Source: Peptostreptococcus anaerobius VPI 4330 = DSM 2949 (lineage in GTDB: Bacteria; Bacillota; Clostridia; Peptostreptococcales; Peptostreptococcaceae). From it: DNA of 36,680 bases. Shown one piece after another: positions 1-13,753 of this stretch. Each line of letters starts with the position of its first letter. Position 1 is the first letter of the stretch. The DNA lies in assembly GCF_000381525.1 (NCBI RefSeq), contig NZ_KB906624.1, positions 1 to 36,680 of the forward strand, read 5' to 3'. The notes under the pieces are model-generated. The model was not told where the DNA came from. It did no database searches and saw only the letters and a list, made by a program, of their open reading frames with translations. A program made the position numbers and the translations under genes.

Positions 1-233
1 TTTTTACTCTTATAACCGTTTCTGCTGTTTTCAACGTCTTCATCCCTAGAATATTTCTCATATCCTAAATGCTCATTCATTTCTGCTTCTAACATATCCT
101 GTAGTGTTTCTCCTAACAAGTCTTTTAAAGCTTCTTGAATATCATTAGCTGTTTTTATATCATAAGTTTTTATTAATTCCCTTACAATATTTTTCTTAGC
201 TGGATTCATTGGTTCTCTTTTTCTTCTTCCCAT
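1..233 (-). CDS. IS256-family (Mutator) transposase, N-terminal part
   Basis: This gene runs off the left edge; 77 codons are visible from an ATG at 233. A ribosome-binding site AGGAG lies about 12 bases upstream on the minus strand. The protein begins MGRRKREPMNPAKKN and contains the block LQDMLEAEMNEHLGYEK (about residues 45-61), a hallmark of the N-terminal region of IS256-family DDE transposases, which move the element by cut-and-paste or copy-out transposition. The catalytic DDE residues would lie in the missing C-terminal part, so whether the copy is functional cannot be judged. It reads away from the neighbouring small ORFs and belongs to the mobile mosaic that fills the left third of the window. 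Confidence 0.85.
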   Translation of the reverse strand, partial: MGRRKREPMNPAKKNIVRELIKTYDIKTANDIQEALKDLLGETLQDMLEAEMNEHLGYEKYSRDEDVENSRNGYKSK

Positions 234-302
234 AACAAAAGTTCTCCTATGATAATAATTTTACCATAGAAGGACTTACAATTTTACAGACTTTTTTACA
301 TA
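1..302 (-). mobile_element. IS256-family insertion sequence, partial (5' end only)
   Basis: The window opens inside an insertion sequence read on the minus strand. It holds the first 77 codons of a Mutator/IS256-type transposase plus its upstream end. The terminal inverted repeat probably lies around 275-302, where the minus strand reads TGTAAAAAAGTCTG and then TTGTAAGTCC, resembling the ends of this family. The exact outer end is a guess because the other end and the target duplication are outside the window. Confidence 0.7.
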
Positions 303-308
303 CACTCC

Positions 309-503
309 TTAGATGCCACCCGTTTTTTTCAGTTCTTTTTTTCTTATTTTCATCAAATTTTCCATCTCTTCAATATCATCTAGAGTAGCCTGTTTTTTGA
401 TGAAATTTCTTGCTGTAGAACGATTTCTTAAATATCTAGCATATTCCCTATTTTTTTCTTGCCACTTTTTATTTGATATTGTTTGTTTGTTTTTATCTTC
501 CAT
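309..503 (-). CDS. Small basic hypothetical protein
   Basis: I do not recognise a function. The ORF is open for 84 codons from 563, but the best start is the ATG at 503, giving 64 residues beginning MEDKNKQTISNKKW, because GGAAGG lies about 10 bases upstream of it. The product is highly charged and soluble, rich in Lys, Arg and Glu, and ends in a Lys-rich tail. It has a probable helical segment with IEEMENLMKIRKKEL near the C-terminus. No membrane segment is visible. Such short charged proteins are common passengers on plasmids and conjugative elements. It lies between the IS256 fragment and another small ORF on the same strand and may share that ORF's promoter. The opposite-strand ORF here is its shadow. 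Confidence 0.55.
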   Translation of the reverse strand: MEDKNKQTISNKKWQEKNREYARYLRNRSTARNFIKKQATLDDIEEMENLMKIRKKELKKTGGI

Positions 504-2601: not shown

Positions 2602-4326
2602 TTAGAGTGCCCATCCAGCGGATTCAAGTTTTTGCTTTAAGAAATTTCTATAAATTCCTTCTTGTGAAATCAAAGAATGATGAGTTCCCCGCTGAACAAT
2701 TCTACCTTGATTTATTACAACAATTTGATCTGCGTTCTGCACCGTACTCAAGCGATGGGCAATCGAAATCAATGTTTTATTCTTTGTTAGTTCTGCAATG
2801 GCCGACAGAAGTGCTTGCTCATTTTCTGGATCGACGCTGGAAGTGGCTTCATCTAAAATGATAATGGGGGCATCTTTTAGCATGGCGCGAGCAATAGAAA
2901 TCCGTTGCTTTTCGCCTCCGGAAAGTGTAGAACCGCCCTCACCAATGATTGTATTGTAACCATTTGGCAATGCAGAAATAAAATCATGGCAGCAAGCGCG
3001 TTTTGCGGCGGCTTCCACTTCTTCATGTGTGGCGTCCGGCTTACCAAATTTGATATTGTTTTCAATGGAATCGTGAAAAAGATACACATTCTGAAAGACC
3101 ATGCTGATATATTCCAAAATACTATCCGCAGTATAGTTTTTGACATCTTTTCCTCCAATCCGAACAGCGCCGTCCTGCACATCCCAAAATCGGGCAATTA
3201 AATTACACAAAGTTGTTTTACCGCTGCCGGATGGCCCTACAATAGCACAGGTTGTATGTTCTGGAATTTCCAAAGAGATGTCATGGATAACCTGCCGCTT
3301 GCCATAGCCAAACGAGATATAATCCAGTGCTATATCGTAGTGGGAAGTTTCTAATTTATCTGTGCTGGTATCCATTTGCGGTATATTGGTGACTTCTTCC
3401 AAACGTTCCAGTTCTGTGATTATTTTCTTGCTCAAAAAAGCACTGTTTCCCATAGTTTCCAAATCAGAGTACACCGTAAACGCACAAAACAGGAAAGTCA
3501 AACAATACGGCAAACTAATTTCTCCTGCCATGAAAATCAATGCTGCCACAGCAATCAGCACACAGCTCATGAGCTTATATACCAGAATATAAAAACGAAG
3601 AACTCCGGTTGTGGCTTTTTCCTGCCCATAATCTGCATCCCACTTTTTTTGAAATGCGCTGCGTACTTCTCGTTGTCCTTCCTCACCTTTGGAGAAAGAG
3701 CGTAGAACAGAAATCCCTCGGATATATTCCATTGATTTACTCACCAGATTTTCCTGTGCTTCTTGATAAATGGGAGTATATTGTGCGGCTCTACTGCGGA
3801 CCCAACGAAGAGCAAGTAAACCTAATAATAGCCCGATCAGACTCAAAATGGCAATAATTGGGTTGAAAAAGAACATCATAATTGACATGAGAGCTGCCAT
3901 AGCAACACCGCTTGTCATCTGCTCGATTGCAAGCATGGAGTAACCCTCTAAATCCGCAATCGTCGTAGTAAGTATTGTCTGAATAGTTCCTAAATTTTGC
4001 TCTGAAAAGTAGCCCATAGGAGCCTGTTTCAATTTTTCTCCTATTTCCAGACGATAATCACGGAAAATATCATATCCCGTTCCACTCATGGTACGGTCAT
4101 ACATCCATTGGAAGAAAAAGCGTCCGATAACACTTCCTAATACAACGCCAAAGGCTTGCAGGATAATAGTGGGTGTAAGATTTTCTAAATGCAATAAAAT
4201 CCAAAAAACACCGAACATCATAAAACTGTTGAAAAAGGATTTGAGAATATTAAATGTGATGCCAACGATGATTTTCTTTCGGCTTCTACCCGCAATCTTA
4301 AAAATTCGGCGTATCATTTCAAACAT
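2602..4326 (-). CDS. ABC half-transporter, YbtQ/IrtB-like (second of pair)
   Basis: This 574-residue protein has an N-terminal six-helix transmembrane domain (about residues 15-300) fused to an ATPase domain. Walker A GPSGSGKT is at 364-371, the Q-loop Gln at 412, signature LSGGE at 468-472, Walker B IIILDE at 488-493 and the switch His at 524, so the ATPase looks intact. Pairs of such half-transporters form heterodimers. The closest known logic is YbtP/YbtQ and IrtA/IrtB, which have the exporter fold but import metal-siderophore complexes. This assignment rests on overall look and on the neighbouring ECF and DtxR genes; a drug or peptide exporter is the alternative. Its start overlaps the end of the partner gene by 8 bases, indicating translational coupling. 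Confidence 0.85.
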   Translation of the reverse strand: MFEMIRRIFKIAGRSRKKIIVGITFNILKSFFNSFMMFGVFWILLHLENLTPTIILQAFGVVLGSVIGRFFFQWMYDRTMSGTGYDIFRDYRLEIGEKLKQAPMGYFSEQNLGTIQTILTTTIADLEGYSMLAIEQMTSGVAMAALMSIMMFFFNPIIAILSLIGLLLGLLALRWVRSRAAQYTPIYQEAQENLVSKSMEYIRGISVLRSFSKGEEGQREVRSAFQKKWDADYGQEKATTGVLRFYILVYKLMSCVLIAVAALIFMAGEISLPYCLTFLFCAFTVYSDLETMGNSAFLSKKIITELERLEEVTNIPQMDTSTDKLETSHYDIALDYISFGYGKRQVIHDISLEIPEHTTCAIVGPSGSGKTTLCNLIARFWDVQDGAVRIGGKDVKNYTADSILEYISMVFQNVYLFHDSIENNIKFGKPDATHEEVEAAAKRACCHDFISALPNGYNTIIGEGGSTLSGGEKQRISIARAMLKDAPIIILDEATSSVDPENEQALLSAIAELTKNKTLISIAHRLSTVQNADQIVVINQGRIVQRGTHHSLISQEGIYRNFLKQKLESAGWAL

Positions 4327-6088
4327 GGTTTTCCACTCCTCCCTTCATGTCTGCTTCTTCTATGGTTCCGGCATAATCTTGCCACATCTTTTGATAGATG
4401 AGGCATTCCCGGAGAAGTTCTTCTTGTGTCCCACGGCCTGCAATATTTCCGTTTGACACAACCAGAATTTGGTCGGCATTGCGAATCGTATTCAAACGGT
4501 GCGCTACAACAATCAATGTCTTTCCAGCCACTAATTTGCTGATTGCCTGTTGAATGAGTGCCTCATTTTCTGGATCAGCATAGGCAGTGGCCTCGTCTAA
4601 AATGACTACGGATGCCGGTTTTAGCATGGCCCGCGCAATCGTAATACGCTGGCGCTCCCCGCCAGAAAGACGGTCTCCGGCATAACCGGCCAGTGTGTCA
4701 TACCCCTGCTCTAACTGCATAATAAAGTCATGACAGTTAGCAGCTTTTGCGGCAGCTTCTACTTCTTCATCTGTTGCTGCCGGATTACCCATGCGGATAT
4801 TTTCCCGAATGGATTTGTCGAATAGGAAATTGTCCTGTGCCACATAACTGATTTCACCCATCAACTGCTCAAAAGGGATTTGACGAATATCCTGGCCGCC
4901 GAAACGCACAGAGCCGGAAGTCACATCCCAAAAACCAGCCATCAGTTTCGCAATCGTGGATTTACCAGAACCGGAAGGTCCAACAATAGCCGTCATAGTG
5001 CCGGGTCTGGTTTGAAAAGAAATACCGTGGAGAACTTCGGTTTCTTTATAACCGAAATGTACGTCCTCGAATTGGTAAGTACGTTCTCCCAAAGATACAG
5101 GTTCAGAGGGGCGAACAAGTTCCGGGGTTTTTAGGAAAGCTGTTACTTGCTCCAAATTACCTTTTATCATGCTGACTTGCTCCATCGCTTCAGACACTTT
5201 CATCAATGGAGCAACAAACCCCAGCGGAACTACTAAAGATATTAAAAATACGGGAAGTGAAAGCGTTCCTTCCATATAGAGCCATGCGCCAACTGGTAAT
5301 GTACCCAAAAGAGTAGAGGGCAGAACGGCCCTCGCTGCGGCGTTCCAGAACCAGCATTGGCTCCACCACTCCATTGTGGAATCGTGAAAATAGTTGACAG
5401 ATTCCGAGTATTTTCCATAAGAAGAAGCAGAGCGATTAAAGGCTTTAATGACTTGAATACCGTTGGCGTATTCCACTAAAGAACTATTCATATCATTCGC
5501 AGAGCGCATATAATTCTCCATTCGGGGGCCATAACCGCGCATCATAGCAGCAAAAAAGAGAATACCCAGTGGAATTGTGATTAGGGATGCAAGCCCCATG
5601 CGCCAGTCCATAATAAAAATCAGGAGGATGCTGCACAACGGCGCTGCAATATTCGATAGCAACTCTGGCATAAAATGAGCCATAGAATCTTCCAGCTTCG
5701 CAACATTGTCTACAATCAGGTTTTTGAAAGTTCCTGTGGGCGTTTCCAGCATAACACCCATTGGGACTTTTGCCATCCGATCTGTGATTGCTTCACGGAT
5801 ATTTTTCAAAATCGTGAAAGAGATTTTGTGGGACATAAGAGAGGAACGCCATGTAAGAAGCATTTTTATAATCTGACATATGGCAGCAATTCCGCTGAAA
5901 AACAAAACGCTCTGCGGAGTAGCTGTACCGTGATAGAGTTCATCTGCTAACAGTGCCACCATTAGGAATGGTACGATACCAAATATCTCTCCCAACACAG
6001 CAAGAAGAATAGAGATGCGCATTTTGCCATTACTCTCACCTACAAAAGCAAATAGTTGGCGGATTGCACCCGGTTTTTTTTGGGACAT
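4319..6088 (-). CDS. ABC half-transporter, YbtP/IrtA-like (first of pair)
   Basis: This 589-residue protein is the first gene of a two-gene minus-strand operon. The ATG at 6088 follows a GGAGG about 8 bases upstream. A membrane domain spans about residues 25-310. The ATPase domain shows Walker A GPSGSGKS (370-377), Q-loop Gln 418, signature LSGGE (474-478), Walker B VVILDE (494-499) and switch His 530. The D-loop reads EATAYADPENEA, a form I associate with the YbtP/YbtQ/IrtAB siderophore-transport subfamily rather than with the usual SALD form of drug exporters. The gene is divergent from a tetR gene across a palindromic operator, so TetR control is likely. Substrate is inferred, not shown. 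Confidence 0.85.
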   Translation of the reverse strand: MSQKKPGAIRQLFAFVGESNGKMRISILLAVLGEIFGIVPFLMVALLADELYHGTATPQSVLFFSGIAAICQIIKMLLTWRSSLMSHKISFTILKNIREAITDRMAKVPMGVMLETPTGTFKNLIVDNVAKLEDSMAHFMPELLSNIAAPLCSILLIFIMDWRMGLASLITIPLGILFFAAMMRGYGPRMENYMRSANDMNSSLVEYANGIQVIKAFNRSASSYGKYSESVNYFHDSTMEWWSQCWFWNAAARAVLPSTLLGTLPVGAWLYMEGTLSLPVFLISLVVPLGFVAPLMKVSEAMEQVSMIKGNLEQVTAFLKTPELVRPSEPVSLGERTYQFEDVHFGYKETEVLHGISFQTRPGTMTAIVGPSGSGKSTIAKLMAGFWDVTSGSVRFGGQDIRQIPFEQLMGEISYVAQDNFLFDKSIRENIRMGNPAATDEEVEAAAKAANCHDFIMQLEQGYDTLAGYAGDRLSGGERQRITIARAMLKPASVVILDEATAYADPENEALIQQAISKLVAGKTLIVVAHRLNTIRNADQILVVSNGNIAGRGTQEELLRECLIYQKMWQDYAGTIEEADMKGGVENHV

Positions 6089-6128
6089 AAGAAAGCCTCC
6101 TTTCAGGCCACAAAATGCAAGAAAGGTA

Positions 6129-6157
6129 TTGCATTTTTCGTGTAACCGTGCTATAAT
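6129..6157 (+). promoter_or_regulatory. Promoter of the tetR-type gene
   Basis: TTGCAT (6129-6134) and a perfect TATAAT (6152-6157) are separated by 17 bases, an ideal sigma-A-type arrangement. The expected start of transcription falls at about 6164, inside the palindromic operator that follows. Confidence 0.75.
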
Positions 6158-6161
6158 TCAA

Positions 6162-6187
6162 ATTACGGTGTAATATTACAATGTAAT
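6162..6187. promoter_or_regulatory. Palindromic operator between tetR and the ABC operon
   Basis: TGTAATATTACA at 6169-6180 is a perfect 12-bp palindrome. Outside it, ATTAC (6162-6166) and GTAAT (6183-6187) are placed exactly symmetrically about the same centre, leaving two unpaired bases on each side. Such nested dyads are typical binding sites for TetR-family dimers. The site covers the predicted tetR transcription start and the probable -35 region of the divergent ABC operon, so one repressor could control both directions. Confidence 0.7.
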
Positions 6188-6212
6188 ATAAGTATAGGAT
6201 GGAGGGATAGAA

Positions 6213-6830
6213 ATGTCAAGGGATTTTCAACAGACCCATGAAAATCTTTTGGCCTGTGCAAAAGAACATTTTCTGGAAAACGGGTTTGAACGTGCCAGTA
6301 TCCGTGAAATCTGCAAGGCTGCTCATGTGACAAATGGGGCTTTTTACAATCACTTTGAGGATAAAGAGGCTTTGTTTGGCGCACTTGTAGAGCCAGTAGT
6401 TCAGGCGGTATCCGAGATGTATTCCGATTCTGTTGTCAAGCACTTTGAATTGGCCCGGACGGATGAATTAAAGCAGCTCTGGAAACTGTCGGAGGATACG
6501 ATCCGTCAGATTATCGAATACATTTACGAACATTTCGATGTATTCAAATTGTTGCTGATGCAGTCTGCCGGCACAAAATATACTTCTTTTCTGGATGATG
6601 TGGTGCGTTCCGATGTTCGGGAGACACAAAAGCTAATAGCAGAGCTGAAAGATCGCGGAGTTTCCGTACATGATCTGGAGGATGACGAGTGGCATATGCT
6701 CGTTCATTCTTACTATTCATCTATCGCAGAAATTGTCTTGCACAATTATTCAAAAGATGCTGCGATAAAATACGCTCATACATTAGCCACTTTTTTCAGT
6801 TCCGGGTGGCAAAACGTTTTGGGGATTTGA
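6213..6830 (+). CDS. TetR/AcrR-family transcriptional regulator
   Basis: This 205-residue protein begins at an ATG preceded by GGAGGG about 6 bases upstream. The N-terminal TetR DNA-binding domain is clear: AKEHFLENGFERASIREI (16-33) followed by the helix-turn-helix CKAAHVTNGAFYNHFEDKEA (34-53). The C-terminal ligand-binding domain is helical and not diagnostic. It is transcribed divergently from the ABC pair, with a symmetric operator between them, and lies upstream of the ECF genes behind its own terminator. Autorepression and control of the ABC operon are inferred from layout. The ligand is unknown; a metallophore or a toxic compound handled by the ABC pair are candidates. Confidence 0.88.
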   Translation: MSRDFQQTHENLLACAKEHFLENGFERASIREICKAAHVTNGAFYNHFEDKEALFGALVEPVVQAVSEMYSDSVVKHFELARTDELKQLWKLSEDTIRQIIEYIYEHFDVFKLLLMQSAGTKYTSFLDDVVRSDVRETQKLIAELKDRGVSVHDLEDDEWHMLVHSYYSSIAEIVLHNYSKDAAIKYAHTLATFFSSGWQNVLGI

Positions 6831-6844
6831 TCCCCAAAATTTTT
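6817..6844 (+). terminator. Intrinsic terminator of the tetR gene
   Basis: TTTTGGGGAT (6817-6826) and ATCCCCAAAA (6830-6839) form a perfect 10-bp stem with a 3-base loop, followed by five T residues. The tetR stop codon TGA lies across the loop. Confidence 0.85.
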
Positions 6845-6850
6845 AACCAT

Positions 6851-6870
6851 AAGTTAGCGTAGTCTAACTA
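6851..6870 (+). promoter_or_regulatory. Candidate iron-regulator box in the ECF leader
   Basis: GTTAG (6853-6857) and CTAAC (6864-6868) are inverted repeats separated by six bases. The half-sites match the GGTTAG/CTAACC core of DtxR/IdeR boxes, although the canonical sites have a one-base spacer. A DtxR-family gene is encoded at the end of this same operon, which makes autoregulation plausible. The leader also contains an isolated AGGAGGT at 6877-6883 that serves no ORF. Confidence 0.4.
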
Positions 6871-6963
6871 TATATAGGAGGTGCGTCTGTAGCATTGCTT
6901 TTGCATAAAGAAATTTTTGTTTCTCATTTATTTATCTAATTATATGGAAAGGACTTTTTGAAA

Positions 6964-7551
6964 ATGGAAAATACAAATAAACTCACAGGTAAAGACCTTA
7001 TTAACATCGGCATCTATTCTGCCATGACCTTGGTTGTTTTCTTTGTTGTTGGACTGCTGACTGCGTTGCCGGTAGTATACCCGTTCTTGTTCCTGATCTG
7101 GCCGATCGTTTGCGGCATCCCTATGATGCTGTATTACACGAAAATCAGAAAATTCGGAATGCTTACCATTACTGGCACTATTGGTGGTATTTTCTTCTAC
7201 CTCATTGGTTATGGATGGATTGGCCTGCTCGGCTGGTTTCTCGGCGGTATTCTAAGCGATGTCGTGCTCAAAATCGGTGGCTATCAGAAATTTAAGGTCA
7301 ATGTTCTGAGCTATGCCTGCTTTTGCTTCGGCTTCATGGGCTGCCCCGCCAATCTCTGGTTTGCCGGCGAAGCATATTGGAAAAACATTCACACCTCCAT
7401 GGGTGATCAGTACGCAAATACTTTGCAATCCATGATGCCATCCTGGATGATGTATGTGGGCTTTGCGCTCCTGTTTGTGGGCGGTATTCTGGGCGCGCTT
7501 CTGGGCCATAAAATGCTGAAAAAACACTTTGAAAGAGCGGGGATTGTGTAA
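6964..7551 (+). CDS. ECF transporter substrate-binding (S) component, MptD/Trep_Strep family
   Basis: I choose the ATG at 6964 (195 residues) because AAAGGA lies 10 bases upstream; a TTG at 6958 would be too close to it. The protein is almost entirely membrane-embedded with about five to six hydrophobic segments (near residues 15-35, 38-55, 62-80, 84-100, 110-130 and 155-180). It resembles the Trep_Strep/MptD group of S components, which give substrate specificity to energy-coupling factor importers. The true substrates of this group are poorly known. It is followed without a gap by the T component (the stop TAA and next ATG share one base) and then by a double ATPase, so this is a complete dedicated transporter. 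A metal or metallophore is the likely cargo given the DtxR neighbour. Confidence 0.8.
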   Translation: MENTNKLTGKDLINIGIYSAMTLVVFFVVGLLTALPVVYPFLFLIWPIVCGIPMMLYYTKIRKFGMLTITGTIGGIFFYLIGYGWIGLLGWFLGGILSDVVLKIGGYQKFKVNVLSYACFCFGFMGCPANLWFAGEAYWKNIHTSMGDQYANTLQSMMPSWMMYVGFALLFVGGILGALLGHKMLKKHFERAGIV

Positions 7552-8282
7552 TGGAGCAGCTTCAAGCAGTTGTTGAAAACAGAACAGGCTTTTGCTTAGA
7601 CCCTCGAACCAAACTTTTGCTAATGGCCGTTGTCGCTACTGCAGAATTCCTATACAGCCACACCGCCTTTATGATTGCGGTAGCGATGATCCCATTTATC
7701 CTGCTGTTGACTAACCGGCAGTATAAAACGGCAACCGTGTTCTTCTGTCTGTTTGTGGTCGGGCTGTTTGTGCAGGCCATCCAGAACTCAGTCCAGTTCC
7801 CCATGATCGTCAATATGCTGGTAGTCCTGCTGGTGGGGCTGGTCCTGCGGCTGTTTCCGGCCTATGTGATGGGGGCCTACATCATCAAATCGACCACGGC
7901 CAGCGAGTGCATTACCGCGCTGGGCCGGATGCACATTGGGCGGCAGATCACTATTCCACTCTCCGTCCTGTTTCGATTCATCCCCACTATGCAAGAGGAG
8001 TCGGCAGCCATCAAAGATGCCATGCGAATGCGTGAGGTTCAGTTCGGAACAAAGAAATTCTGGCAAAACCCCGCCGCTCTGATTGAATACCGTTTTATTC
8101 CCCTGATGATCTCGGTGGTCAAAATCGGGGATGATCTCTCTGCGGCGGCCCTGACCCGCGGCCTGGATAACCCGGTCCAGCGCACCAATATCACAAAGGT
8201 CGGGTTTACCGGCTGGGATCTGCTGGCGGTGCTGATTGCCGTAACTGCACTGCTCTCTACATACTTTTTCAGCCCGTTGTAA
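7551..8282 (+). CDS. ECF transporter transmembrane (T) component, CbiQ/EcfT family
   Basis: This 243-residue membrane protein begins MEQLQAVVENRTGFCLDPRTK; the DPRTK motif after a short cytosolic stretch is typical of CbiQ/EcfT. Hydrophobic segments lie at about 25-50, 60-80, 82-105 and near the C-terminus (220-240). The two cytosolic coupling elements that touch the ATPases are visible: RFIPTMQEESAAIKDAMRMR (about 147-166) and the AALTRGLD block (about 199-206), which carries the conserved Ala/Arg/Gly motif. It couples ATP hydrolysis by the following ATPase gene to movement of the S component. Its start overlaps the S gene stop by one base. Confidence 0.9.
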   Translation: MEQLQAVVENRTGFCLDPRTKLLLMAVVATAEFLYSHTAFMIAVAMIPFILLLTNRQYKTATVFFCLFVVGLFVQAIQNSVQFPMIVNMLVVLLVGLVLRLFPAYVMGAYIIKSTTASECITALGRMHIGRQITIPLSVLFRFIPTMQEESAAIKDAMRMREVQFGTKKFWQNPAALIEYRFIPLMISVVKIGDDLSAAALTRGLDNPVQRTNITKVGFTGWDLLAVLIAVTALLSTYFFSPL

Positions 8283-8294
8283 GGAGGTGATACT

Positions 8295-9800
8295 GTGATT
8301 GAATTGAAAGATGTTTCCTTTACCTATGAGAGTGGGGAAACCGAGAACAACCTAAGCCATATCAATCTGACAATCCAGGATGGCGAAACCATCCTGCTCT
8401 GCGGAGAGTCCGGCTGCGGCAAGACGACGCTGACTCGGCTAATCAACGGCCTGATCCCGCATTATTACGGCGGGAAGCTGACCGGGCAAGTCCTTTTAGA
8501 TGGGAAAGAGTTAAAAGACTATCCTCTTTATCAAATCGGGCAACGGGTGGGATCTGTATTCCAAAACCCAAGAACACAATTCTACAATGTGGATACCACC
8601 AGTGAGATCGTTTTTGGGTGTGAAAACATGGCCCTGCCGGTCCCGGAGATGCGGGAGCGCCTGGAAGAGACTGCCCGCAGCCTCAAGCTGGAAAAGCTGC
8701 TGAACAGGAGCTTGTTTGCTCTCTCCGGCGGAGAAAAACAGAAAATAGCCTGTGCCTCTGCCGACGCAATCCACCCGGACATCTTTGTACTGGACGAGCC
8801 ATCCTCCAACCTAGATATTGCCACTATCGAAGATTTGATTGGTATGATTCGGCACTGGCAGTCAGAGAAAAAGACTGTGATTGTCGCGGAACACCGACTT
8901 TATTATCTCGTTCCCTATGCAGATCGAATTCTCTATATGAAGCATGGAAGTATTGTACGGGAATTTACCGGGGCGGAGTTTCAAAAATTATCGCCCGATG
9001 AATTGCAGGGGATGGGGTTACGGGCACTGGACCCATTCCACCTGTCCCCAGAGGCTGCCCCCAAACCGACCGCTCCGAAATTGCATATCAAAGGATTCCG
9101 GTTCTCCTATGAAAAGCACGGCCCCCTCAATGTGGATGTTCCAGACCTAAACTTGCCTCAAGGCGAGATTATCGGCATCATCGGATACAACGGCGCAGGA
9201 AAATCCACCTTCGCCCGGTGTCTGTGCGGTCTAGATAAAAAAGCGAGAGGTGTGCTTGAAATGGATGGGGCCTCCTATGACGCGAAGCAGCGCAGGCATA
9301 TCTCCTATATGGTCATGCAGGATGTAAATCATCAGCTATTCACGGAAGATGTGATGGACGAATTGCTACTTAGTATGGATGGCGAGGACGAGAAAGCAGA
9401 CACAGACTGCGCCAAGGAGATACTGACAAGCCTTGACCTGTTGGAGAAGGCAAAGCTGCACCCCATGTCCCTGTCAGGCGGTGAAAAACAGAGGGTGGCG
9501 ATTGGCAGTGCAATAGCCTCGGACAAAAAGATCCTGATATTTGACGAGCCTACCAGTGGATTGGATTACCGGCATATGCTGGAGGTATCAGACAACTTAA
9601 ACCGCCTGAAAGAACTGGGAAAGAGCCTGTTCCTGATTACACATGACCCGGAACTTATTTATAAATGCTGCACCTACCTGTTGTTCATTCAGGGGAGCAA
9701 GGTGTTGTGGCATCGACCTATGGACGGGGAGGCTGAGAGTCTCTTATTGGATTTCTTCTCCCGCGAGCAAGAAGCAGGTTCAGTCAATGACTCCCGGTAA
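8295..9800 (+). CDS. ECF transporter ATPase, two fused ATP-binding domains
   Basis: This 501-residue protein contains two ABC ATPase domains in one chain, replacing the usual EcfA1/EcfA2 pair. The GTG at 8295 is chosen because AAGGAGGTGA lies just upstream with 7-base spacing. Domain 1: Walker A GESGCGKTT (37-45), signature LSGGEKQ (143-149), Walker B FVLDEP (164-169), His 200. Domain 2: Walker A GYNGAGKST (297-305), signature LSGGEKQ (393-399), Walker B LIFDEP (413-418), His 450. All key residues are present, so both sites should hydrolyse ATP. It energises the S and T components encoded immediately upstream. Its end overlaps the DtxR-type gene by 14 bases. Confidence 0.92.
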   Translation: MIELKDVSFTYESGETENNLSHINLTIQDGETILLCGESGCGKTTLTRLINGLIPHYYGGKLTGQVLLDGKELKDYPLYQIGQRVGSVFQNPRTQFYNVDTTSEIVFGCENMALPVPEMRERLEETARSLKLEKLLNRSLFALSGGEKQKIACASADAIHPDIFVLDEPSSNLDIATIEDLIGMIRHWQSEKKTVIVAEHRLYYLVPYADRILYMKHGSIVREFTGAEFQKLSPDELQGMGLRALDPFHLSPEAAPKPTAPKLHIKGFRFSYEKHGPLNVDVPDLNLPQGEIIGIIGYNGAGKSTFARCLCGLDKKARGVLEMDGASYDAKQRRHISYMVMQDVNHQLFTEDVMDELLLSMDGEDEKADTDCAKEILTSLDLLEKAKLHPMSLSGGEKQRVAIGSAIASDKKILIFDEPTSGLDYRHMLEVSDNLNRLKELGKSLFLITHDPELIYKCCTYLLFIQGSKVLWHRPMDGEAESLLLDFFSREQEAGSVNDSR

Positions 9801-10173
9801 AAAACTGTACGCTTCCGGCGAGGACTATCTGGAGGCTGTGTTGGTAATCCAGAAAAAGAAAGGCATGGTACGCTCCGTGGATGTATCTCGGCACATGGAG
9901 GTGTCAAAGCCCAGCGTGAGCTATGCGGTAGCGACTTTACGGGATGGCGGATTTCTCACAATGGATGAAGATCGCTTTCTCCATCTGACCGATATGGGCC
10001 GCGAAGTTGCTGAGAAAATTTACGAGCGGCACTGTTTCTTCCGCGACAAGCTCATCGCCGCAGGCGTTGATCCCAAGAGAGCGGAATACGACGCCTGCCG
10101 GATGGAACACAATATCAGTATAGAATCCTTTGAGAAACTTCGGGATTACTATTCTTCTCAAAAGGGTAAATAG
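9787..10173 (+). CDS. DtxR-family metal-dependent repressor, short iron-type
   Basis: The frame is open from 9643 but the start is the ATG at 9787, giving 128 residues (MTPGKKLYASGEDYLEAV...). The N-terminal winged helix is visible, with the recognition region HMEVSKPSVSYAVATLRDGG (36-55). Metal-site residues align well with the family: Asp13 and Glu16 in GEDYLEA, His82 in ERHCF, and Cys104, Glu107, His108 in ACRMEH. Cys at 104 corresponds to the DtxR Cys102 position rather than the Glu found in MntR, which favours Fe(II) over Mn(II). There is no C-terminal SH3-like domain, so it is half the length of DtxR. It probably represses the ECF operon, and perhaps the ABC pair, when iron is plentiful. 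Confidence 0.88.
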   Translation: MTPGKKLYASGEDYLEAVLVIQKKKGMVRSVDVSRHMEVSKPSVSYAVATLRDGGFLTMDEDRFLHLTDMGREVAEKIYERHCFFRDKLIAAGVDPKRAEYDACRMEHNISIESFEKLRDYYSSQKGK

Positions 10174-10199: not shown

Positions 10200-10230
10200 A
10201 ATGCGGCCGGGCAATACACCCGACCGCATT
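10200..10230. terminator. Terminator between the DtxR and XRE genes
   Basis: AATGCGGCCGGG (10200-10211) pairs with CCCGACCGCATT (10219-10230) apart from one mismatch, with a 7-base loop. It lies between two convergent genes and contains the start of the XRE stop codon, so it probably stops transcription from both sides. Confidence 0.7.
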
Positions 10231-10561
10231 ATTTGTCAGATTTCTTCTCTTTGGTATCCAGCATTTTGTCAACCGGGGTAAGTAGCAACTCCTGATCCCG
10301 CTGGCTACATTGTGGAACCAACCGCATGATCCGGTCAACGATTTCGCTGTCTGCGTTCACCTGCGGTGCAAGAATTTCATCAAAAGAAGCGCCAATGGCA
10401 TTGACAAGGCGAATCAGGACATCCAGGCTCGGCTTGCGCCTGCCGCTTTCTATGGCCGCTAAAAAACGAGGACTGATTTCTTCACGCTCCGCAATCTGTT
10501 CTCTCTTATAGTTTCGTTTTTCTCTGGCATTCCGCAAGGATGTCCCAAACGAAAAATCCAT
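10229..10561 (-). CDS. XRE-family helix-turn-helix regulator
   Basis: This 110-residue protein starts MDFSFGTSLRNAREKRNYKR and has a complete Cro/C1-type helix-turn-helix: REQIAEREEISPRFLAAIES (about 20-39) followed by GRRKPSLDVLIRLVNAIG (about 40-57). The C-terminal half is polar and without recognised motifs. Similar regulators occur in Tn1549-like conjugative elements, where they control element genes; here no target operon of that type is left. It converges on the DtxR gene with a shared terminator. Upstream of its start there is a large inverted repeat (10,578-10,649), and no strong ribosome-binding site is visible, so expression may be low or altered. Confidence 0.85.
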   Translation of the reverse strand: MDFSFGTSLRNAREKRNYKREQIAEREEISPRFLAAIESGRRKPSLDVLIRLVNAIGASFDEILAPQVNADSEIVDRIMRLVPQCSQRDQELLLTPVDKMLDTKEKKSDK

Positions 10562-10802: not shown

Positions 10803-12121
10803 TTATCGTTTAGTTGTGTGCCGTTGGTAAGAGTATCTTATTAGATGTGGCTTCATGTTTCTGCATAAAGAAGTTTTTGTCATCAAGAGACTGTCTTCTT
10901 TAGCGTGTAGTTTAATGATAGCCTCTCTATAGATTTCTTCCAACGGTATTTTTTTGTATTGAAAATATAGTGCTGCGAAGATCATGGTCTCACCGCATTT
11001 GGCACAAATGAGTGGATCATACCCAAAAGATTTAAGGATGGAGTCCCTCAAGTTCGTAAAAGATAAAGATTTCGTGCCATGCTTGGCTTTGAACTTTTTT
11101 GCATGGATCCTGACTTTGCACTTACTTGCGTAGAACCCTCCGTAGCGGATCATCTTAAAGTTTTTTTCTGGAAGATGCATAAAGACAAGCTTTAAGAATT
11201 CAAGAACAGGCTGTGAAACCGTAACAAGTGTTTCGTCTTCGTGCTTGTTATAGTGCCAGACGACAGTCTGGCCATCATAAGAGTCAATCCTGGAGGTGGC
11301 GATCACTGGCCTGCCGAGATAGCGACTCACATACTTGACGACATCCTTTCTGGACATGTCACCCTGCAAGTGCTCTTTTCCTTTATCATCTATGAAGGGC
11401 TGGGCATAGACATAGAAACCGTCCTTATGATGTTTATAACAGGAAACTTTTTGCTTTTGAAAAGAAGGACCGATAGAAAGACGTAGTTTATCAAGAAGAA
11501 CCTTTTGAAAAGATTTTCGAAGAAACTCATAAGGGAAGAACTCCACAGGGCGCCATGCACCCCATTGATTAAAGGCACCTTCGGTGCATAAAACGTGAAT
11601 ATGTGGATTCCATTCAAGGGGTCAAAGGTATGGAGAGTCATAGTAAAACCGGGCCTGAGGATCTCGCACTTTGTCTTATGGGCAATGTTTTGAAAGAAAC
11701 AGGTTAAAACTTCTTCAACGGAATCAAAGAGGAGATTCAAGAGTGAACGGTCATGCAGGAAAAAAGGGCGCAAGGCTTCATCAATGGTAAAAACGATGTG
11801 ACGATGTTTGACATCGATCATGATGGATTGCATTGTCTGAGCACGTTTAAGAGAGTAGATGGCGCCGCAGGTGCTGCATAGTTTTGAATGACAACGGTAA
11901 GGAACAAATTTAATCTCACCGCATTCGGGACAGATAAAAAGAGCGCCGCCATAATCAGGGTCACCGCAACGGATCAGTCGGTTGATGTTGTCCATAACAA
12001 CCGGCCGAGGCTTGAGAATATACTGAATTTCTTCGTAATGCTCAAAGCACATCTGCTGAATGAGGTTACGGCGAGAGTTCAGCTAGACTGTTTCTTTTCC
12101 AAAAAGGACCCACTTATCGTT
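10801..12121 (-). mobile_element. IS91-like element, approximate extent
   Basis: The transposase pseudogene is bracketed by identical 10-base sequences ACTTATCGTT in direct orientation at 10,801-10,810 and 12,112-12,121. IS91 elements do not make target duplications, so these may be part of the element ends or chance. The true ends (an origin and a terminator hairpin) were not identified with certainty. Confidence 0.45.
10803..12052 (-). pseudogene. IS91-family (HUH, Y2) transposase, frameshifted
   Basis: Two overlapping minus-strand frames together make one transposase of about 416 residues. The first (ATG at 12,052) has an N-terminal zinc ribbon, CPECGE...CHSKLCSTCG (about 41-63), and the block KHRHIVFTID. 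The frame is lost after LHTFDP, and the homology resumes in the next frame as LEWNPHIHVL, which holds the HUH motif (HIH). Farther on comes YVSRY, the two catalytic tyrosines of the Y2 class. A C-terminal CAKCGETM zinc-like motif follows. The break is explained by one missing base in a run of four G on the plus strand at 11,618-11,621. Such enzymes move DNA by rolling-circle transposition and can carry adjacent DNA. As read, the catalytic domain is untranslated from the main start. Confidence 0.88.
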
Positions 12122-12162: not shown

Positions 12163-13753
12163 TTTAAACTTTCCACCCTGCCAATAGTTTTAGGGACAAT
12201 CTTATCTTGGGCTTTTGCAAATTTGCTCTTATATTTGTTGTGATTTAACAATTCTATCTCTTATAAAAAAATATCAAATATTTTAGGAGAAAGTCTAAAA
12301 TCTCCAGGCTTTAATTTAGTAATACCAAGTATTGGGTCTATTTTAATAATTATTTTGTTATCCATTATTAATGGTTTATTTTTCAGCATTGATTCCTGCA
12401 AAGAAAAGCTCAAAGATAAAGGTTATTGAGGGATTAAATGGCATTACAGAAAAAAATATTAAATTTGGTAAGTCAAAAATAAATGGACCTATAGAAAAGA
12501 CTTTAGCAAAAGATTATTATAGGTCATATCGATCAACCTATCGAATTATTGTAATCTCAATGGCTCTTTCTGCCTTTGTACTGACTACAATTTTAGTTAG
12601 CCAATCATATAGAACTTTGAACGAAAAATATAACTCTTATAAAAGTCCTTACAATTTTAATTCAAGTATTTACACTGATAAGAATTTAGATAAAAACTTA
12701 TTAGCTGATTTAGAAAAAGTTGACGGAATAAAAGAGCTTCACCTATATCAAAGAAATGACACAAAATTTTATGTTGACGATAATAAAGATTTAATTTCTA
12801 AGGACTTAAAAGATTCTTTAGCTAGTGGCAAAATAGCAGAAGATGGACTATATGCTAGTATATACGCTTTAACAGATGAAGATTTTGAAGAGCTTTTAAA
12901 AGAAAATAACATCTCCCATGCATCTTATTTATTGCTTAATAAGATAAGAAAAGATAATAAAACACCTTACGCTTTTAGCGAGTATATAAAAATTTCTGAT
13001 GAGGGATTTGGAGATATTACTTTAAAATATAATGCAGATGGTAAGTCTATGTCTATAAAGATAGATTCAAGTATTGATGGAATGCCTTATAATCTATAAG
13101 CTTATAATGACAATCAAATATCTATTTTTACAAGTGAAAGTACTATGAAAAAATTTGTTGATGAGTATGGAATAGATGAGGGCAACCCAGTTTATTATTA
13201 TTTTGTAAAAATAAATGCTGATAATAATAAAGAAAAAGTATTTGAAGATTCCGAAAAAGTGATTTCTAATTATGTACCAAAGTCTGACCATGGAACAGCT
13301 ACAGACATTGTAAGAGAAGCAGCAAGTAAAGAGCAAACAAGGAATGAAAGACTTTTAAACCTAGCTATTCAAATCATTCTAATAACAATCGCTCTTTCCA
13401 ATGCCTACAATAGTTTTAAAGGCAACCTTAGAGCAAGAACCAATGATTTTAAACTCCTATCAACAGCAGATATGACAGAAAAACAAATGGAAAAGATGGT
13501 CTTCGGAGAATGAAAAATACTGTTTGAAAATATTTTCTTAGCCTATATCTTTATGTTCATTATGGGAATTACACTTAGAGCCTACAGGAGCAACTATGAA
13601 CTAGGATTTGCTGTAAAAGGTCTGATAATAAATATGAATTATATCCCTCTACTAATAGTATTTGTATTTATGATTGCAGGAGTTTTACTAGCAATAAAAA
13701 GTGGATTTAAAACAATAAACGAAAACTCAGATAATACTTTTAAGAGTATTTAA
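12163..13753 (+). pseudogene. FtsX-type ABC permease, multiply disrupted
   Basis: A single permease gene can be traced through four lesions. It begins inside a hydrophobic segment (LSTLPIVLGTILSWAF) right after the IS91-type element, so its 5' part is missing. There is an in-frame TGA at 12,241-12,243, a one-base shift in a T run at about 12,379-12,384, a TAA at 13,097-13,099 and a TGA at 13,511-13,513; the parts after the last two remain in the same frame. The block ALIPAKKSSKIKVIEGLNGI just after a membrane segment is diagnostic of FtsX-like permeases, as in BceB/VraG-type peptide-antibiotic transporters. A large extracellular domain and C-terminal membrane segments follow. No partner ATPase gene remains nearby. 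Confidence 0.85.

Follow-up and report, generated by a model that had tools for sequence, protein, structure and literature searches.

The stretch analysed here (the window) comprises 36,680 nucleotides of Peptostreptococcus anaerobius VPI 4330 and holds, at positions 2602-10173, seven genes that look like the receiving half of a siderophore system (Table 1). They encode two ATP-binding cassette (ABC) half-transporters, a TetR-family regulator, a complete energy-coupling factor (ECF) importer and a short DtxR-family regulator, and each is an open reading frame in the place given for it in an earlier note on this DNA. S, T and two ATPase domains are encoded together, as in an ECF transporter with a dedicated motor. 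The S protein is an ECF S component by sequence family and fold; NCBIfam names the Trep_Strep family 'putative ECF transporter S component'. Searched against PDB sequences, the S profile yielded only two matches, to phage coat proteins at E ~0.2, which we take as chance. The DtxR-family gene, whose start is ATG 9787, shares its first 14 bases with the end of the ATPase gene, and both the DNA-binding and the metal-binding/dimerisation domain of the DtxR/MntR family score over cut-off. The earlier note counted three regulators. The TetR and DtxR proteins lie within the cassette; the third can only be an XRE protein at 10229-10561(-), outside this range. Since it was seen in just 2 of 26 related loci (L008, L009), the XRE protein is not core to the cassette. 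Rfam gave no match at gathering scores in the window.

Table 1. Genes and candidate control sites of the cassette (positions in the window).
Feature	Position	Strand	Remarks
ABC half-transporter 1, YbtPQ/IrtAB-like, presumed EqbK/L counterpart	2602-4326	-	ABC_membrane + ABC_tran
ABC half-transporter 2	4319-6088	-	ABC_membrane + ABC_tran; overlaps half-transporter 1 by 8 bases
Perfect palindrome TGTAATATTACA, candidate TetR operator	6169-6180	.	divergent promoter region
TetR-family regulator	6213-6830	+	PF00440 E 2.5e-13
GTTAG-N6-CTAAC box, within AGTTAG-N6-CTAACT, candidate operator of the cassette DtxR protein	6853-6868	.	
ECF S component, Trep_Strep / MptD family	6958-7551	+	PF09605 E 7.3e-55; TIGR02185 132.9 bits vs cut-off 76.45
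ECF T component, CbiQ family	7551-8282	+	PF02361 E 1.2e-13
ECF double ATPase, A and A' fused	8295-9800	+	two ABC_tran stretches
DtxR/MntR-family metalloregulator, 128 aa	9787-10173	+	PF01325, PF02742 above cut-off (scan on 9793-10173)

The stretch between the TetR and S genes contains AGTTAGCGTAGTCTAACT. The GTTAG-N6-CTAAC box found here has the core and spacing of the published operator of EqbA, a 36-bp palindrome (Heather et al. 2008, PMC3672683). It occurs once in the window, against 0.01 expected, and is the single exact match in the 2.1-Mb genome. The counts that follow refer to two sets: a named set (L008-L033; 28 S matches, including the close copy of Peptostreptococcus sp. MV1) and a class-draw set (the window, L103, L105 and L108-L138; 36 S matches). 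Across S-bearing loci totalling 1.06 Mb, the N6 box is found 90 times, four of these counted twice because L115 and L032 are one locus that appears in both sets; the reversed box is found 0 times, the complemented box twice and all other N2-N11 spacings together 5 times. A box precedes S by no more than 350 bp in 22 of the 28 S loci of the named set (the S frame of L022 was mis-called, so its box at 8913 was counted absent) and in 17 of the 36 of the class-draw set; the reversed control gave 0 matches there in either set.

Genes behind other boxes include FeoB, FecCD, flavodoxin and ZIP transporters as well as half-transporter pairs and NRPS (nonribosomal peptide synthetase) operons (L115 was left out of this gene-neighbour count of 90 boxes, a somewhat different box set). 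Boxes in divergent regions ahead of FeoB are found in L028 and in L032 (~480 bp off, beside ZIP), and the FecCD box is in L013. Counted by eye, 12 of 27 S-bearing genomes have at least eight boxes, compared with 22 of 364 others; at least eight reversed-control matches occur in four genomes, one of which (G205) belongs to the 22. Boxes, frequently as tandem pairs or triplets, stand before ZIP, FeoB, enolase, flavodoxin and DUF3793 genes (L028:23-1606 and 5934; L119:11585-11707; L024:4176; L031:2908). Clostridia thus have a wider predicted box regulon, enolase and an unexplained family (DUF3793) included.

The cassette DtxR protein is the only PF02742 match in its genome. With one box and one such regulator, the predicted circuit would be closed in this genome. 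The earlier note had described a transport and sensing half, and its regulator now has a matching candidate operator. The note also named D13, E16, H82, C104, E107 and H108 as an iron-type metal site. All six residues are as named, and C104 stands where solved MntR has Glu; the corresponding Cys of EqbA was read as iron-type by Heather et al. (PMC3672683). C104 recurs in 16 of 16 regulators of the window's type and in nine other locus rows of the alignment. Position 13 departs from this picture: the cassette regulator has Asp, opposite the Asp of MntR, where DtxR has Met and EqbA has Asn (PMC3672683). As D13 is MntR-like while C104 is iron-type, the metal site is better described as a hybrid. 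A DtxR-family regulator with Cys104 and a GTTAG-N6-CTAAC site together give the cassette what appears to be the control module of an equibactin-type locus.

The synthesis genes of such a locus are missing. When the window was searched by tblastn for NRPS, reductase, thioesterase, Ppt and ligase genes, nothing matched, and a search of the whole genome found no thiazolinyl imide reductase. PF00668 matches only one protein there, a 732-aa condensation-adenylation protein in which no carrier domain was detected (contig C3, L149:2341-4539(-)); MV1 also has a protein with the same match pattern. As far as searched, neither the locus nor the genome holds NRPS biosynthesis genes of the equibactin type, in agreement with the earlier note's statement that biosynthesis genes are absent. 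In L008-L017 and L020, drawn from four families, the gene order is conserved, the proteins are 62-100% identical and the flanks examined contain no NRPS. Among the 13 genomes behind L008-L020, six have no condensation-domain match and two have a reductase over cut-off. In Flavonifractor An82 (L016:1061-17161) and Diplocloster (L011:440-17117) several receiver sets, i.e. ECF or half-transporter genes with a box and/or a DtxR gene, follow each other in a row, with no NRPS in the stretches examined; the Flavonifractor An82 genome has no condensation-domain match. A literature search found no stand-alone ECF siderophore cassette among the matches listed, subscription journals being mostly outside its scope.

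Elsewhere, the same cassette is joined to synthesis genes. In L019/L047 (S 93%, half-transporters 88 and 93% identical; DtxR gene not seen there) the genes that come after it encode a thioesterase, an adenylation-carrier protein (whose methyltransferase match stays under cut-off), a condensation protein, two large NRPSs and a thiazolinyl imide reductase that scores above cut-off. In Blautia schinkii (L021/L048) a 78% identical cassette precedes a second boxed S-T set, thioesterase-, Ppt- and AMP-ligase-like genes, NRPSs and an AraC-like regulator; no thiazolinyl imide reductase over cut-off was found in this genome. MV1, whose S protein is 98% identical to that of the window, carries on contig C72 (L050:3700-11643) an EqbA-like regulator, a box, and thioesterase, Ppt, AMP-ligase (adenylation) and NRPS genes, with relaxase and MobC genes upstream. 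This regulator has Asn and Cys at EqbA's two places (by eye; the Cys also in the alignment). A further contig, C6 (L049), holds another NRPS and two Irp3-like reductases, then a different ECF set and half-transporter pair. As the earlier note proposed, the cassette resembles an equibactin-type transport and sensing half that lacks synthesis.

The co-occurrence check proposed in the earlier note, run in one form, points the same way. In a class draw of 391 genomes, S relatives (E 1e-25 or better) are found in 27, the reductase in 8 and both in 7. This means that an S relative is present in 7 of 8 reductase genomes and in 20 of 383 others (Fisher p 2.6e-8, uncorrected for kinship). S and reductase lie at most 10 kb apart in five of the eight (G172, which is MV1, G143, G194, G290, G375). 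In the reverse direction, 20 of the 27 S-bearing genomes lack the reductase at that threshold. On the S tree, the window groups with Peptoniphilus and MV1 within a set of six that includes the NRPS-linked L019 (support 100/81); the tree leaves out L047, L060, L061, L115 and S matches below 45 bits or 150 aa. An automatic flag marked NRPS linkage in 6 of 36 class-draw and 3 of 28 named S matches. It missed L103 (MV1 C6), which is NRPS-linked by coordinates, marked L130 on the strength of a weak 26% match, and entered L112 and L021 in its count twice.

The earlier note took the cassette for imported DNA, and its composition and relatives bear this out. Its GC content is 46%; from position 12371 onward the window has 37.5%, and the surroundings of the genome's six other S loci have 32-35%. 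These six are further Trep_Strep ECF loci (L143-L148, on contigs C35, C9, C13, C1, C40 and C52), five of which adjoin half-transporter pairs. At the nucleotide level the cassette is 97.5% identical to Peptoniphilus rachelemmaiella, a member of another family, over 8,288 bases and 96.6% identical to MV1, a member of the same genus, over 8,038 bases. S proteins at 87-98% identity occur in Peptostreptococcaceae, Peptoniphilaceae, Lachnospiraceae and Oscillospiraceae, and only two of the six genomes of the genus in the draw, the window's and MV1's, carry a close cassette. The flanks vary by copy: a ParA/ParB piece and a Y2 transposase in the window, a Mutator transposase in MV1, a serine recombinase in Eisenbergiella porci, and redox and histidine-kinase genes in Peptoniphilus. 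The cassette has been transferred horizontally, and recently.

The Y2-type transposase lies directly 3' of the cassette at 10803-12052, in two overlapping frames on one strand (the family scan covered the first, 10803-11546). Beside it, at 12371-13513, pieces of an ABC-permease-like gene are seen by eye in more than one frame. At 81% identity, window positions 1-311 match the transposase end that adjoins the MV1 cassette (L008 1366-1681); here the ParA/ParB piece lies between them and the cassette. No close copy was found in a plasmid collection (one record at 31%) or a phage collection (two phage-labelled contigs at 37 and 33%), and viral_contigs gave no pattern match in a search reaching close relatives only.

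The best PDB match of both half-transporters, among half-size chains in the best 60 matches listed, is 6p6i_A, chain A of the YbtPQ entries. This chain is presumably YbtP, since chain B of 8vsi carries the name YbtQ. The next-best half-size chains in the same list are YbtQ for half-transporter 1 and IrtA for half-transporter 2; full-length eukaryotic ABCB chains rank above them, with two matched stretches. Thirteen of the 15 loci L008-L022 have half-transporter 1 at the corresponding position, with 78-99% identity. In the divergent region the palindrome TGTAATATTACA sits just after a TTGACA-17-TATACT promoter-like site pointing to the half-transporters; two such sites were observed, with 2.8 expected by chance. 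Ten of 26 related loci share the palindrome: L008, L009, L010, L015, L017, L019, L020 and L021 at the corresponding position, and L027 and L028 ahead of TetR. It was not found in the remaining 16.

The nearest counterpart of the cassette is the equibactin locus eqbA-N on ICESe2 of Streptococcus equi (PMC3672683), which shares a three-gene importer, a YbtPQ-like pair, a DtxR-type regulator with Cys104, the operator core and a mobile element. The paper describes EqbHIJ as permease, permease and ATPase; the cobalt/ECF-like label comes from the earlier note. In contrast to the equibactin locus, the cassette has no NRPS, thioesterase, ligase or reductase, adds a TetR gene, ends its ECF operon with the regulator gene and shows Asp13 in place of the Asn13 of EqbA. 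A siderophore cluster on 023_CTn1, a conjugative element of Clostridioides difficile (PMC6814731), likewise combines two ABC genes, a further ABC ATPase, an ECF cobalt-type gene and a membrane protein, with an AraC-type regulator instead of TetR and with NRPS genes including a thiazolinyl imide reductase. YbtPQ (yersiniabactin) and IrtAB (mycobactin) share the paired half-size ABC transporters; here the likeness is one of sequence rank, and the cassette pair adjoins an ECF importer.

Genetic work by Heather et al. (2008, PMC3672683) showed that most equibactin-dependent uptake of 55Fe requires EqbHIJ. The earlier note's suggestion of a new siderophore-uptake route therefore does not hold as such: equibactin-type uptake through an ECF-like importer is already known, and what would be new is the receiver-only, self-regulated, mobile form.

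Taken together, we consider it likely that the seven genes form a mobile, iron-repressed, receiver-only siderophore uptake cassette. Iron-loaded DtxR protein would repress the S-T-AA-DtxR operon; when iron runs short, it would leave the box and the operon would be made. As the regulator is encoded at the end of the very operon that it would control, the circuit would be closed and independent of the host. The S component would bind a ferric metallophore, which the ECF motor would import and which most likely belongs to the thiazolines (equibactin/yersiniabactin-like). Control of the half-transporters would fall separately to TetR, most likely as a sensor of the metallophore or of one of its breakdown products, and the pair would either return the emptied carrier outward or aid import. 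The siderophore would come from other cells, i.e. the cassette may serve the theft of a foreign metallophore.

Several observations weigh against this proposal. The reversed control gives about two matches per whole genome (by eye); we therefore rejected the single box of the window's genome as significant by its number, and it is the position of the box that carries weight. Boxes also stand upstream of enolase, phosphatase, MATE and DUF3793 genes. No box was found at 19 of the 36 class-draw S loci or at the six other S paralogues of the window's genome, five of them beside half-transporters, so the Trep_Strep S family has further uses. The S protein beside MV1's own NRPS has 34-36% identity to the cassette S. 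Because that NRPS has an S component of its own, the cassette need not serve its product, and the ligand may differ. The NRPS-linked label is unclustered on the S tree (five changes, with 209 of 500 shuffles as low), so the exact siderophore is not readable from it. Finally, the likeness to EqbHIJ and EqbKL is one between kinds of genes as described (PMC3672683), not between compared sequences.

Half-transporters next to a TetR gene are a usual layout of efflux systems. The pair might thus be a TetR-controlled exporter of drugs or of apo-siderophore, leaving import to the ECF part alone, and half-transporter 1 is barely nearer to YbtPQ than to MsbA (266 vs 252 bits). Half-transporter 2 speaks rather for the siderophore transporters, with YbtPQ chain A and IrtA nearest in the PDB list, as do the 30 of 36 class-draw loci in which two or more half-transporters lie no further than 10.5 kb from S (a count without background control); 9 of 90 boxes stand at most 400 bp in front of the second half-transporter. 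In S. equi, deletion of eqbKL left equibactin-dependent iron toxicity in place and made the supernatant less active, suggesting efflux (PMC3672683). The YbtPQ/IrtAB likeness drawn in the earlier note stands as a sequence rank, by which the pair might import ferric siderophore; since EqbKL was dispensable and may export, the label of importing half-transporters is unsafe. Because EqbHIJ, in contrast, was needed for most 55Fe uptake, we regard an exporting pair as a serious possibility, at somewhat under an even chance. It is compatible with the proposed uptake cassette and may be its correct second half.

As to what the ECF importer carries, heme is the chief rival ligand. In this scenario, heme or another tetrapyrrole would be taken up, and the iron control and NRPS neighbours would be secondary. 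ECF heme importers are reported in Gram-positives, such as LhaSTA of Staphylococcus lugdunensis (PMC7299338), which is also a three-gene, iron-regulated system (in the cassette through a candidate box), and S components for heme in other species share little sequence. LhaSTA differs in its Fur control, its isd neighbours and its heme ligand. The cassette is joined to thiazoline NRPS genes and the wider S family goes with the reductase, EqbHIJ imports a siderophore (PMC3672683), and no heme genes were seen among the Pfam-scanned neighbours, a small part of all neighbours; we judge a heme importer unlikely. Uptake of a metallophore for zinc, manganese, copper or nickel, or of a non-thiazoline metallophore, seems scarcely more probable. 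It would agree with the MntR-like D13, with ZIP genes carrying the box in L028 and L032, with EqbA binding its operator with Fe2+, Zn2+ and, incompletely, Mn2+ (PMC3672683), and with a 2025 Staphylococcus survey that raises Zn, Mn or Cu for an S. lugdunensis NRPS with an ECF importer (PMC12709192). The constancy of C104 and the boxes near FeoB, FecCD and flavodoxin point back to iron, and the thiazolinyl imide reductase beside the same cassette to a thiazoline. That the cassette is a decaying remnant, a transport half of no present use after NRPS loss, is very improbable. Its place between mobile DNA pieces, the ParA/ParB piece and the Y2 transposase in two overlapping frames, would suit such decay; all seven genes are open, the order is conserved across four families with no NRPS in the examined flanks, the window shows no NRPS traces, and L011 and L016 carry tandem receiver sets.

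If the proposed uptake cassette is what these genes encode, its meaning may reach beyond this genome. We give about an even chance to the wider claim that in many Clostridia the Trep_Strep/MptD S components of this clade act as the siderophore receptors, working without a binding lipoprotein and circulating between families as self-regulated receiver cassettes, so that even a single genus can hold both producers and thieves. In a 2026 survey of siderophore receptors of Gram-positives (PMC13293324), recognition is assigned to lipoprotein binding proteins, and the main text does not contain 'ECF' or 'energy-coupling'. Were the claim true, lipoprotein-based receptor surveys would miss an uptake route that several gut anaerobe families possess. 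An orphan ECF S family would gain a testable ligand class, and Clostridia a candidate regulatory site that marks iron-controlled uptake. The cassette itself would be a case of mobile DNA bearing only the receiving half of a siderophore system.

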